This document shows, piece after piece, positions 19,395 through 37,785 of a stretch of DNA of 47,099 nt. Position 1 is the first letter of the stretch. The number at the start of each line of letters is the position of its first letter. The stretch is taken from NCBI GenBank assembly GCA_021775005.1, contig JAJFIK010000023.1:1-47099 (forward strand), read 5' to 3'. A program made the translations under genes and the position numbers. The notes beneath the pieces were generated by a model, which saw only the letters and a list, made by a program, of their open reading frames with translations, had not been told where the DNA came from and did not search any database. Source of the DNA: Rhodospirillales bacterium (GTDB lineage: Bacteria > Pseudomonadota > Alphaproteobacteria > JAJFIK01).

Positions 19395-20597
19395 ATGCGT
19401 GAAGCCGTAATCGTATCGACCGCCCGTACCGGGCTCGCCAAATCAGGCCGGGGCGGATTTAACATCACCCACGGCTCCATTATGGCCGGGCACACCCTGA
19501 AACACGCAGCTGAGCGCGCCAAAGTTGAGGGTGCCGAAATTGAAGACGTGATCATGGGCTGCGGCAATCCAGAGGGCGCCACGGGCATGAACACAGCGCG
19601 GATTTCTGCCATGCAGGCGGGCTTCCCCGTTTCAGTGGCAGGAACCACCGTCAATCGGTTTTGCTCTTCCGGGCTTCAGACCATTGCCATGGCAGCGGGG
19701 CGCATTGTTGCCGAAGGTGTTCCCATCATGGCCGCAGGCGGTGTGGAAAGCATCTCCCTCGTCACCATGGCCGGTGCGAATTACAACAACATCGTTGAAG
19801 AAGGGCTTTTTGCCCGCATGCCCGCACTTTGGATGGCGATGATCGAAACCGCAGAGATTGTCGCTGAGCGCTACAATATTTCTCGCGAGGCGCAAGATGA
19901 ATACTCTCTGCGCAGCCAACAACTGGTGGCCGCCGGTCAGGAAGCCGGTAAATTCGCCGACGAAATCGTACCGCTGCCTACCAAGATGAAAGTGGTCAAC
20001 CGCGAAACCAAAGAAGAAAGCATTGTCGATTACGTGGTCGACAAAGACGAATGCAATCGCCCCTCAACAACATTGGAAGGGCTCGCAGGGCTAAAGCCGG
20101 TGCTCGCCAATGGGCAACAGATCAAAGAAGGCAAATACGTCACGGCGGGCAATGCCTCACAGCTTTCCGATGGCGCCTCGTCCTGCATATTGATGGAAGC
20201 CAAGGAAGCGGAACGCCGCGGGCTTGAGCCGCTGGGTGCCTTCCGCGGCTTTGCCGTTGCAGGTTGTGAGCCCGATGAAATGGGCATTGGTCCGGTCTAT
20301 GCGGTGCCGCGCCTGTTGGAGCGGGCCGGTCTTAAAGTCGATGACATCGATATTTGGGAGTTGAATGAAGCCTTCGCCTCGCAATGTCTTTATAGCCGCG
20401 ATAAGCTCGGCATTGATCCCGATAAATACAACGTCAATGGCGGCTCCATTTCTATTGGGCATCCTTTTGGCATGACCGGCGCTCGTTGCACCGGGCACTT
20501 GCTTATTGAAGGCAAACGCCGCGGCGCGAAATACGGCGTTGTCACCATGTGTATTGGCGGCGGTCAGGGCGCAGCAGGATTGTTTGAAATCTTCTAG
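19395..20597 (+). CDS. Acetyl-CoA acetyltransferase / 3-ketoacyl-CoA thiolase
   Basis: A 400-residue thiolase. The acyl-accepting Cys90 is in [11 protein letters not shown], the active-site His in [12 protein letters not shown], and the second Cys in [10 protein letters not shown] near the C-terminus, so all three family signatures are intact. It catalyses thiolytic cleavage of 3-ketoacyl-CoA (or condensation of two acetyl-CoA). I start at ATG 19395 with GGAGG nine bases upstream. The gene ends 10 bases before a strong hairpin terminator, so it is probably monocistronic. It supplies the last step for the acyl-CoA enzymes spread through the first 20 kb. Whether it prefers long chains or acetoacetyl-CoA is not fixed by sequence. 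Confidence 0.95.
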
Positions 20598-20607
20598 GCC
20601 GATCAAA

Positions 20608-20650
20608 TTGCAGACATCGAAAGCGCCGGGCAGCGATGCTCGGCGTTTTT
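20608..20650. repeat. 43-bp direct repeat, left copy (contains a terminator)
   Basis: These 43 bases are identical, base for base, to 22008-22050, exactly 1400 bases away. The repeat holds 16 bases of leader (beginning TTGCAGACATCG) as well as the hairpin and the first T's, so it is more than two similar terminators. The base before each copy differs (A versus C), and the right copy continues with A rather than more T. Confidence 0.95.
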
Positions 20651-20652
20651 TT
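20624..20652 (+). terminator. Rho-independent terminator after the thiolase
   Basis: Hairpin arms CGCCGGGCA (20624-20632) and TGCTCGGCG (20637-20645) form a 9-bp stem with one G-U pair, closed by a GCGA (GNRA-type) tetraloop and followed by seven T's. It starts 27 bases after the thiolase stop. This is the strongest terminator in the window. Confidence 0.92.
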
Positions 20653-20968
20653 GGGCAAGAGCCGGGTTCGCAGAAATAGCGCCAGTATTTTGCAATGCGG
20701 CATCACTCAGAAATGTGTGCATATTCAGGGCGTTGGCATGCCAGTGGTTGTTGTGCAACAGACATTCTAGTATTCCGCTACCTTTCCCCCAATCAGACAG
20801 TCGTTTTCCGTGATCAGAGGTGCTGCGTTCTATATACTCGCGGTCGCTAGTAGTTGTGACGATAACGAGCCGAGGTGACGCGGCGTAGAGCGTCCCTACC
20901 CAACCAGTCGAATTTTCATGTGCGTGATTTGAGCGATGAGAATTACGCAGTAGAGGTGGAGGCGGACA
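20651..20968. other. Non-coding stretch upstream of the cysteine-rich protein gene
   Basis: About 318 bases without a convincing gene. Composition is more AT-rich than neighbours. I see a short palindrome (TGTTG-TG-CAACA) near 20750 and a good ribosome site (GGTGGAGG, about 20956-20963) for the following gene; no certain promoter. It may hold the promoter of that gene. Confidence 0.5.
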
Positions 20969-21952
20969 ATGCGTTACTTACTTTTCTTTGCAATTGTGAG
21001 TTGGATTGGCGTTGCGCATGCGCAACAAGTGATTGACTTCGAAACGATACAAGATTCTACAACAAATACTATTGTGACACCGCAAGAGGGTGACCCGGTT
21101 TGGGATCAGTACTTTATTGATCCGTGGAATATCGTTTTCACGATGAAGGATAGCAATTTCAACTTCGATGGCTATCCGCAGATAGCGCAGGTTGGTCCCC
21201 AACTACCGACGCCGTTTTTTGCATTTGATGGTCCAGTCACCACATATCCAACAAATTGCGGGCAGACCAATGGTGACGAAGAAGACATTCCTGCCGCTAA
21301 TGAGTCCGTTGGTTGTTACTTTTTGACCGATGGCGCATCTGGTGTAACTACTGCAAATCAAATGTTGTTCATCCAGTATGGCGTGGGCGTTCAGGCAGCG
21401 AGCGCCGCAATACTGGATATCGATGGTAATGAGGCATGGACCGTAGCCGCGTTTGATACGACCTTTGTGACGGCATTAACTGTACCCATTGCAACCTATC
21501 GTGTTTGTTCAAGTTTGAACAATGGAGGCATTCCTGCAACGGGCCTTTACGGCGATCCATGCACCACGTCGTCTGACACGGGCGATGGAATTGCTCATGA
21601 ATTTACGATCGGCACATCGAACCCAAATACTCCGATACGAAGCATTCTAATTGCCTTCGATGGGGCCAATGTTAACGGGACAGTGCCAGCAACGAATGTC
21701 GGGCTAGCGTTCGATAATTTTAGCCCAGACGCGCCGCAACCGCCGCTTCCATGCACTGGCACCGTTACCTGTACGAACAACAATACTGGTGCCGCTGGCA
21801 ATTGTTGTGGTTGTGCATGCAATTCTTGCTGCTCGAATTCGGGTCAAAGTGACGGTTCCGATTCATGGTTCTTGAAATTTGCGGTAATGGTTCTTCTGAG
21901 TTTCGTTTTCATAATGACGCTTGTGGTGCTGACGAGAACAAATCGCGGATAG
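20969..21952 (+). CDS. Orphan exported protein with Cys-rich, membrane-anchored C-terminus
   Basis: A 327-residue protein I cannot place in a named family. It has a Sec signal (1-18, cleavage after AHA), a beta-rich extracytoplasmic body (about 20-255) with VIDFE at the mature N-terminus, a Pro linker, then eight cysteines in 27 residues (262, 268, 279, 280, 282, 284, 287, 288), a Ser/Gly spacer, one transmembrane helix (about 300-321) and a short tail TRTNRG. The order body, linker, short motif, helix, basic tail resembles C-terminal sorting signals (PEP-CTERM or MYXO-CTERM type), though no known signature is exact. ATG 20969 follows GGAGG. It lies inside the 1.4 kb repeat-bounded segment with its own terminator copy downstream. 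Confidence 0.8.
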   Translation: MRYLLFFAIVSWIGVAHAQQVIDFETIQDSTTNTIVTPQEGDPVWDQYFIDPWNIVFTMKDSNFNFDGYPQIAQVGPQLPTPFFAFDGPVTTYPTNCGQTNGDEEDIPAANESVGCYFLTDGASGVTTANQMLFIQYGVGVQAASAAILDIDGNEAWTVAAFDTTFVTALTVPIATYRVCSSLNNGGIPATGLYGDPCTTSSDTGDGIAHEFTIGTSNPNTPIRSILIAFDGANVNGTVPATNVGLAFDNFSPDAPQPPLPCTGTVTCTNNNTGAAGNCCGCACNSCCSNSGQSDGSDSWFLKFAVMVLLSFVFIMTLVVLTRTNRG

Positions 21953-22007
21953 AGATCATGCCTAAGCAAAAGGGATCCTTGGCAAGCGTATGGTTTAGTT
22001 TGTAGCC

Positions 22008-22050
22008 TTGCAGACATCGAAAGCGCCGGGCAGCGATGCTCGGCGTTTTT
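22008..22050. repeat. 43-bp direct repeat, right copy (contains a terminator)
   Basis: Identical to 20608-20650. It begins 55 bases after the stop of the cysteine-rich protein and ends six bases before the stop codon of the convergent TPR-oxygenase gene. Confidence 0.95.
22024..22050 (+). terminator. Rho-independent terminator, second copy
   Basis: The same 9-bp stem and GCGA loop as at 20624, here followed by five T's. It would stop transcription of the cysteine-rich protein gene. On the opposite strand the hairpin could also act for the convergent gene, but the A-run needed for that side is weak. Confidence 0.88.
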
Positions 22051-22056
22051 ATTTGC

Positions 22057-23412
22057 CTAAACCTCGCCTGCCAGGGCGCGCTTGCGATACTCGCTGGCCC
22101 ACTCATGGGGGATCACGTCAAAGGCGCAGCTGATCCGCGTCTCATCGCTATCAAAGGGGATGGTGTGGTGAAACATAAACGAGGGAAACATCACGATCAT
22201 GCCTGGCTCGGGTTTCAAAAACTTGGTTTTCGGCGCGGCCTTGTGCGGAATGTGATAGGCCGGGCGGCCAAATTCAATCCAACCCTCATGAGCCTCGCCT
22301 GAGCTTTCCACGCGCTCAGGAATTTTCGCGTAGTAGCAGCCCGAGAGCCACCCCTCCGGGTGGAAGTGCGGCAGCTGGTGGCCCTGGCGATGCATGATGT
22401 TGGCCCAAAGCTCAATGCCAATGCGCCCCGGCGGGCTGGTAGGGAAGGGGCCATCACTTGCGTTCGCTTCCAAATGCTTTTGCATGCGGCGGATGGCTTG
22501 CTCAATGCGAATACCAAATGCTTTCATGAGGGGCGAAGGGTCGTGCAATAGATAAGATACTTTTTGCCCGTTGCGCGTGGCGCGATGGCTGGGGGCGTCT
22601 TCTATGCGGGCGTGATTGGTAAGCTCTTGGGTGAGCGCGGCATTGAAGTCCTGGATGGAAGCAAACCCTTCAGGAACTTCTAGCTCATAGGCAAAGACAT
22701 AATCGTCCAGGCGGCTAATGGCGTTGGCCTCGTCATCGCGTCCAAGTTCGCGCAAGGCCACTTCGCGATAGGCAAGGGACTTAAGCGCAAAAAGATCATT
22801 GCCCTTTAACGCATCGAAGGCTTTTAGTGCCTGTTCGGGATGGCCATTTGCCAAGCACACCTTGCCAAGGGTGTAGTGGGTGTCAGGAACATCCGGCAGC
22901 TCTTTGGCGGCGCGCATGGCAGGTTCCAGCGCCTCACCATAGTGCTGCGCCTCGTAATGCGCGCTGGCAAGATTGAGATAGACCGCAGGCTGGTTTGGCG
23001 CTAGTCGCGCAAGGGCCTCAAACGCCGCAATGGCATCGTCAAATTTGCCTCTTTGGATAAGCAGCCCGCCAAGCGCAAAGAATGCCTGCGGCTGATCGGG
23101 GTGGTGTCCGACAAGGGTTTGAAATGTCTCAATGGCGTCATCCGCGCGCCCGGCGTGAAGGTAGACCGTTGCAAGGGTACCGAGGTAATTGGCATTATCT
23201 GGCACAACTTTGAGCGCCCGCTTGGCAAAGTCGATGGCCTCATCACGTTTGCCTTGCATGTTGCTGGCAACAGCTTTCATGGCGAACGCATCGGGCACCG
23301 CGTCTGTTATGGCAATGATGGGGTCCAGCGCCGCGTCCATATCCTGCGGTTTGTTTTGCTGCAGGGCCTGCATGGCCGATGTCAGGGCTGATTGAATAGC
23401 GGCATTATCCAA
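22057..23412 (-). CDS. TPR protein with C-terminal 2OG-Fe(II) oxygenase domain
   Basis: A 451-residue protein. Residues about 1-230 are tetratricopeptide repeats, for example the AVYLNLASAHYEAQHYGEAL and DTHYTLGKVCLANGHPEQAL units. The C-terminal part (about 270-450) resembles the putative 2OG-Fe(II) oxygenase family: HFHPEGWLSGCYYAKIP supplies the N-terminal iron ligands, MFPSFMFHHTIPF the distal His, and DETRISCAFDV the 2-oxoglutarate-binding Arg. It probably hydroxylates a protein or small molecule. The start is TTG at 23412, seven bases after GGAG; longer readings would run deep into the upstream gene. It overlaps the preceding hydrolase gene by eight bases, so it is coupled to it. Confidence 0.83.
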   Translation of the reverse strand: MDNAAIQSALTSAMQALQQNKPQDMDAALDPIIAITDAVPDAFAMKAVASNMQGKRDEAIDFAKRALKVVPDNANYLGTLATVYLHAGRADDAIETFQTLVGHHPDQPQAFFALGGLLIQRGKFDDAIAAFEALARLAPNQPAVYLNLASAHYEAQHYGEALEPAMRAAKELPDVPDTHYTLGKVCLANGHPEQALKAFDALKGNDLFALKSLAYREVALRELGRDDEANAISRLDDYVFAYELEVPEGFASIQDFNAALTQELTNHARIEDAPSHRATRNGQKVSYLLHDPSPLMKAFGIRIEQAIRRMQKHLEANASDGPFPTSPPGRIGIELWANIMHRQGHQLPHFHPEGWLSGCYYAKIPERVESSGEAHEGWIEFGRPAYHIPHKAAPKTKFLKPEPGMIVMFPSFMFHHTIPFDSDETRISCAFDVIPHEWASEYRKRALAGEV

Positions 23413-24193
23413 AAGCCTTCTCCTGCGGTTGAGCGATCTGAAGGTTACCTGTTTCAACATCACGGATAAACGCAATTGTGTCTCGCAATACTGGCGCCGT
23501 GAATCGCAATGGTGCGGCAATGGATGCAATAATCGCCTTGTGACCCAAAACCGGATAAACGATGTGTCGCACGGTTTGGCCGCGCTCGGTCAGGGCGTCA
23601 TGGAGATGTACAGAATTATGCGGCGGCACGGTTTTGTCGCCTTTTGAATGAAGCAGCAACATGGGCGGCGGCGCGCTGCTCAAGTGTTTGATCGGCCGCG
23701 CCACGTCAATGTCGGTCAGGTGTTCAAACACCGGGCGAACATTATCAGACTCAAGAGGGTTGAAGCTGTAGGGTCCCGCGACGCCGGTAAAACTGGATAT
23801 GGGATTTTGCGAAAATCCGGCCTGACTCAAATATTGCCCATCAAGCATCAACAAGGCGCCGGTGTGGGCTCCAGCGGAATGGCCCATCAAGTGTACCCGT
23901 GAGGGGTCGCCGCCAAAGCGCGCAATGTTCTCTGTGACCCATTTTGCGGCCAAGGCCGCATCATGGACGAAGTCAGGAAACCGCACTTCGGGGTAGAGGC
24001 GATAGTCTGGCACCGCAACGGTGAAGCCGCGCCGCGCAAACGCCTTACCTAAAAAGCCGTAGAGCGTGCGTTCTCCATTTTGCCAACTGCCGCCGTAGAG
24101 ATATAGAAGCACGGGCGCGGGGCCTGCGGTCTGGGCCGGATAGATGTCGATCTTTTGCCGCGGCTCAGGGCCATAAGCTTGCGTATGGGACAT
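23405..24193 (-). CDS. Alpha/beta hydrolase, kynurenine-formamidase/BD-FAE-like
   Basis: A 262-residue soluble alpha/beta hydrolase. The oxyanion segment is YLYGGSWQNGE (a HGGxW-type motif with Tyr in place of His), the nucleophile is in GHSAG, and the distal acid and His are in HSKGDKTVPPHNS and LGHKAI. The layout matches esterases of the bacterial feruloyl-esterase/formamidase-like group. I start at ATG 24193 with AGGAG ten bases upstream; a GTG at 24202 would leave only one base of spacing. Its end overlaps the TTG start of the TPR-oxygenase gene. It is divergent from the ScsB-type gene. Substrate is unknown. Confidence 0.87.
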   Translation of the reverse strand: MSHTQAYGPEPRQKIDIYPAQTAGPAPVLLYLYGGSWQNGERTLYGFLGKAFARRGFTVAVPDYRLYPEVRFPDFVHDAALAAKWVTENIARFGGDPSRVHLMGHSAGAHTGALLMLDGQYLSQAGFSQNPISSFTGVAGPYSFNPLESDNVRPVFEHLTDIDVARPIKHLSSAPPPMLLLHSKGDKTVPPHNSVHLHDALTERGQTVRHIVYPVLGHKAIIASIAAPLRFTAPVLRDTIAFIRDVETGNLQIAQPQEKAFG

Positions 24194-37678: not shown

Positions 37679-37755
37679 ATTTGAGCTTGTCACTTTCAAT
37701 GCGGGTGACAATAATCTTGCTCCGTTCACCCCCACCCGGCTCGCGATGCTCGCCG

Positions 37756-37785
37756 ACCTCCCCCGTCCCAAGGGGGAGGTTTTTT
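37756..37785 (+). terminator. Terminator after yacG, possibly part of a REP-like repeat
   Basis: Arms ACCTCCCCC (37756-37764) and GGGGGAGGT (37772-37780) form a perfect 9-bp stem with a 7-base loop, then five T's. It ends the murA-yacG block. The hairpin and its left flank (GGCTCGCGATGCTCGCC) resemble dispersed intergenic repeats in other proteobacteria. Confidence 0.82.

Follow-up and report, generated by a model that had tools for sequence, protein, structure and literature searches.

In the Neisseria minimal mobile element as defined in PMC3898611, one pair of conserved genes encloses different cassettes in different related genomes, and incorporation is by homologous recombination at the flanks alone. 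The locus described here, a junction between a thiolase gene and a convergent TPR/2OG-Fe(II) oxygenase gene in Rhodospirillales, is alike in that the same junction holds an orphan gene in the genome under study (G000), an oxidoreductase and a lipoprotein gene in one congener (G001), and nothing in another (G002), although at the level of species and not of strains. It departs from the Neisseria arrangement in that the cassettes are bracketed by identical copies of a predicted host terminator, and in that the empty site of G002 has one such copy. As in the target-site duplications of transposons, apparently foreign DNA lies between direct repeats of the target, with one copy at the empty site. 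In contrast to transposons, insertion sequences, and MITEs, the duplication is much longer (29-43 bp) and variable, there are no terminal inverted repeats and no transposase, the inserts are unrelated to each other, and neither they nor the repeats have further genomic copies.

The integrase islands of tRNA genes, delimited by attL and attR, are comparable in having direct repeats from a hairpin-forming gene end, with the function of the flanking gene preserved, but the present inserts have no integrase, span 1.4-2.0 kb only, and are flanked by a host-specific repeat with no second site. Integron cassettes are likewise small gene cassettes between direct-repeat hairpin sites (attC), whereas the repeat here appears to be a simple intrinsic terminator, each site has one insert, and none of the scanned recombinases is an integron integrase above the cut-off. 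The uptake-sequence terminators of Neisseria and Pasteurellaceae also tie terminators to the gain of foreign genes, but are dispersed repeats, unlike the single-locus sequence found here. A literature search of titles and abstracts recovered no description of such an arrangement.

A predicted terminator repeated on either side of an orphan gene

The window analyzed here is the whole 47,099-nucleotide stretch of contig JAJFIK010000023.1. A repeat search across it recovered a 43-bp sequence, TTGCAGACATCGAAAGCGCCGGGCAGCGATGCTCGGCGTTTTT, at 20608-20650 and again at 22008-22050, the copies being identical at 43/43 positions and spaced 1400 bp start to start; about 1e-17 such pairs are expected in the window by chance, which excludes a chance origin. 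Each copy comprises a 16-nt leader, a hairpin with 8-bp arms (including one G-T pair) and a 6-nt loop, and a T5 run, with the cores at 20624-20645 and 22024-22045. The left copy together with its downstream flank folds at -25.9 kcal/mol (z -4.3), far better than shuffled sequences. The combination of a GC-rich hairpin and a T-run following a stop codon is that of an intrinsic terminator, and we accordingly predict the left copy (+ strand) to be the native thiolase terminator, a position homologous to that of the single terminator of G002. A consensus terminator scan did not list this hairpin, probably because the stem reaches into the T-run. The right copy (+ strand) is followed by the native right flank, TTTGCCTAAACCTCG, which is similar to CTTTAAACCTCG of G002.

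Between the copies lies a segment of 1357 bp (20651-22007), which is missing from G001 and G002 as judged by a DNA search of the genus and by the empty site of G002. Its GC content is 0.489 versus 0.567 in the remaining window, and its single clear ORF (20969-21952, + strand, 327 aa) has a GC3 of 0.46 versus 0.62 and 0.64 for the neighboring genes. The encoded protein displays an N-terminal signal-like helix and a C-terminal region with a Cys-rich stretch, a transmembrane helix, and a basic tail, features suggesting that it is probably secreted and membrane-anchored. This C-terminal organization is similar to that of sorting signals of the MYXO-CTERM and PEP-CTERM kind; none of the NCBIfam sorting models matched the protein (20969-21952). 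Its structure, folded without an alignment, is uninformative (mean pLDDT 37.9), with confidence for the two terminal helices only. The protein has zero matches in Pfam, phages, plasmids, viral contigs, solved structures, and 40 genomes of the class, and no credible match in NCBIfam, PHROGs, or PADLOC. We rejected phage or plasmid cargo as the identity of the gene on account of the lack of matches in phages, plasmids, and viral contigs.

A preliminary description of this DNA had pointed to two identical 43-bp repeats 1400 bases apart that include a leader and the terminator hairpin, and to an AT-richer segment with a single orphan gene between them. The former is exact to the base and folds strongly, and the latter agrees with the composition, the third-position bias, and the lack of family matches. 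That description had also named a search for further copies as a check: the inner 36 nt of the repeat occur at these two sites only in the 2.85-Mb genome, with up to three mismatches allowed, and the 1.4-kb segment occurs once in the three genomes of the genus at the DNA level, in G000, and is absent from G001 and G002 at the protein level too.

Empty and differently filled sites in congeneric genomes

The comparison set comprises three genomes of the order, all of one genus, namely that of the window and the two congeners. The left neighbor of the segment is a thiolase of the acetyl-CoA acetyltransferase type (19395-20597, + strand; Pfam Thiolase_N/C), whose orthologs at the same junction are 94% identical in G001 and 84% in G002. 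The convergent right neighbor (22057-23430, - strand) combines TPR and 2OG-Fe(II) oxygenase domains (Pfam TPR_16 and 2OG-FeII_Oxy_5). Its orthologs at the junction are 59% and 54% identical, i.e., it diverges much faster than the adjoining thiolase, and one contig scan with the oxygenase as query returned distant TPR proteins only. The gene order acyl-CoA dehydrogenase, thiolase, TPR/2OG-oxygenase (opposite strand), hydrolase, and DsbD-like is common to all three genomes, the names of the first and the last two resting on the sequence itself and not on family matches.

In G002, the thiolase and oxygenase genes are separated by 77 bp with one terminator, AACGCCGGGGCCTTGCGCTCCGGCGTTTT. The corresponding gap in G001 is about 2 kb and contains a curcumin-reductase-like oxidoreductase gene and a small lipoprotein-like ORF, both unrelated to the insert of the window; this insert is flanked by two identical 29-bp copies of that genome's own terminator, CGCCGGGGCAGAAATGCTCCGGCGTTTTT, which lie 2000 bp apart and have no further site in G001 within three mismatches. 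In both filled sites the duplication ends at T5, its length being 43 bp in G000 versus 29 bp in G001. Both outer flanks are native, with the left copy following the thiolase and the right copy running into a right flank like that of G002. Such an empty junction with a single homologous terminator had been set beforehand as the test of the earlier reading of the segment as an insertion, and G002 supplies it; together with the unrelated filled site of G001, this gives good support to insertion with duplication of the terminator. The earlier statement that the segment lacks a recombinase holds too, as no ORF of the insert in either G000 or G001 has a recombinase domain.

The small lipoprotein of the G001 insert (L037:4667-5143) matches phrog_6823, a family of unknown function (E 8e-18), and weakly a PEGA domain. 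This insert starts with a palindromic element (L037:3231-3318) built on CCCGGCTTGACC/GGTCAAGCCGGG, which recurs in G001 at about 22 copies per Mb of the sampled sequence and less often in G000 and G002. A translocated native gene was considered as the source of the G001 insert and rejected: the paralogs of the oxidoreductase within the genus are only 41-43% identical, and the lipoprotein has no paralog in G000 or G002. The start-to-start spacings of exactly 1400 (20608-22008) and 2000 bp (L037:3173-5173), for which we found no reason, are taken as coincidence.

The last gene of each insert reads toward the right copy, which lies 27-72 bp away. This orientation would fit inserts that each carried a similar terminator of their own, with one later conversion making it the same as that of the thiolase. 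However, two unrelated donors would then have to supply a similar terminator by chance, and in G000 the 16-nt leader is identical as well, making such an origin very improbable. Both filled genomes are fragmented assemblies, the listed contamination of G001 being 8%; the evidence base as a whole is two filled sites and one empty one. The fragmentation might favor an assembly artifact, or an extrachromosomal one-terminator circle that the assembler merged into the chromosome. We give this even less credence, as the arrangement occurs independently in two genomes, inside contigs and with conserved genes on both sides, and the joins between insert and terminator must still exist in the DNA.

Age of the duplications and possible exchange of cassettes

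Within each species the terminator copies are identical, and what separates those of one species from those of the other is an extra stem pair and two bases of the loop. The four-fold degenerate sites of the thiolase differ at 54% between G000 and G001, i.e., they are saturated. Given hairpin cores that differ between species and such saturation, the identity within species points to recent duplication or conversion. By arithmetic from the 54% rate, the probability of an unconstrained 16-nt leader surviving unchanged is about 4e-6. An ancestral duplicate kept by descent alone was thus rejected on account of the saturation, and the sequence comparison indicates that the duplications are either recent and independent or homogenized.

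The latter option forms the core of the chief rival to the explanation that we favor below. Here, the terminator pair would have arisen once, in an ancestor shared by G000 and G001, with the cassettes being swapped by homologous recombination, or excised and re-entering as one-terminator circles, and with conversion keeping the copies identical. It accounts for the restriction to one locus better than template switching does: the filled locus is found in the two genomes whose thiolases are closer to each other (94%), and nothing alike was seen elsewhere in the surveyed sample. It also resembles the Neisseria minimal mobile elements (PMC3898611), and ComEC, which is encoded in all three genomes, makes DNA uptake conceivable. 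Against this, it requires repeated conversion over 29-43 bp, a length that is short for homologous recombination; the blocks of identity are sharp-edged; and the leader is common to both copies in G000 but not in G001. On balance, we consider exchange of cassettes between an inherited pair of terminators doubtful.

Rarity of the arrangement and the search for machinery

We surveyed 2.07 Mb by stretches, comprising 1.07 Mb of G000, 0.27 Mb of G001, 0.34 Mb of G002, and 0.40 Mb of the more distant G010. Among the 323 terminator-like hairpins in this sample, which covers about 37% of G000 and 7% of G001 such that rare further cases are possible, no other terminator is duplicated around a segment. 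Genome-wide terminator duplication was rejected as not seen in these 2.07 Mb, the candidates in stretch L116 being a repetitive region and the others short chance matches. The L116 region (L116:5102-5975, G000:C40) is an array of 15-bp repeats resembling the coding sequence of a repetitive protein rich in Lys and Ala. Elsewhere in the window, the hairpin ACCTCCCCCGTCCCAAGGGGGAGGT with a T-run at 37755-37780 belongs to a dispersed palindrome family, which is present in G001 and G002 as well and not in the G010 sample. Pairs of the parS-like sequence TGTTTCACGTGAAACA were also observed at L059:1104 and 3104 and at L146:2113 and 4093, i.e., 2000 and 1980 bp apart, in G001 and G002.

Tyrosine recombinases are encoded in all three genomes, but none lies within the insert or in its near flanks. 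Integration at the terminator as the core site of a tyrosine recombinase acting in trans, or inserts that are remnants of elements without their integrase, would draw on the several such enzymes other than XerC/D found elsewhere in G000 and G001. The filled-site terminators have arms of 8-9 bp and a 6-nt loop, a geometry similar to that of the att cores at tRNA anticodon loops. Yet neither insert carries a recombinase, the genomes have no further copy of the site, the inserts of G000 and G001 share no ends, and the ten recombinase ORFs scanned from G000 and G001, a subset of the total, all fall below the cut-off for an integron integrase. Moreover, the core of each element would have to match the form of the terminator found in its particular host, and such a match is not expected of an imported att core. 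A trans-acting recombinase is at most possible, and we hold site-specific integration overall to be unlikely.

No terminal inverted repeats were found at the insert ends of either filled site, and the difference in duplicated length (43 versus 29 bp) is not expected of a transposase with a fixed stagger. A classical element is made less likely by these differing lengths and by the lack of shared ends, of a recombinase, and of other copies. We rejected the repair of a staggered break through Ku-dependent end joining: no Ku gene was found in the three genomes (91-98% complete), and a control search found Ku in Bacillus subtilis.

A tentative model of insertion at the terminator

Taken at face value, the sequences make it seem that foreign DNA was taken in at this junction and that the terminator was copied each time. 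We tentatively propose, at somewhat less than even confidence, that the thiolase/TPR-oxygenase junction is an acceptor site at which cassettes enter at the terminator and the terminator is duplicated, likely by template switching. In G000, a 1357-bp segment with one foreign gene for a putative secreted protein would have entered just after the thiolase terminator, and the host's own 43-bp terminator would have been duplicated, probably at the time of insertion, leaving the segment between identical copies and both flanking genes with a terminator. In G001, a separate event would have introduced two different genes, which now lie between identical 29-bp copies of that species' own terminator. 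Replication or repair may stall at the hairpin, whereupon the 3' end would switch to foreign DNA and copy it, and then return upstream of the hairpin such that the terminator is copied a second time. Template switching of this kind would give duplications of variable length without an element-borne recombinase. Selection might then favor insertions after which both members of the convergent pair still have a terminator, and the survivors would probably be of this type. Two rare independent events at one locus, with none elsewhere in the sample, are awkward for a general repair mechanism and suggest that something is special about the site.

We also put forward, as possible and not as probable, the more general notion of terminator-acceptor sites, wherein single-locus terminators would repeatedly take in unrelated foreign genes and be copied at each insertion, by an undescribed mechanism that is either recombinase-free or driven by a recombinase in trans. 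The case bears on the manner in which single foreign genes may become established in chromosomes without a recombinase: at one terminator, the three related genomes show an empty site and two sites filled by unrelated inserts, with the terminator in two copies at each of the filled ones. If such acceptor sites exist, every cassette would gain a host terminator and its neighbors would stay insulated. Should further strains bear this out, the junction would serve as a directly testable model for the entry of small gene cassettes between convergent genes, with the transcription of the latter left undisturbed.
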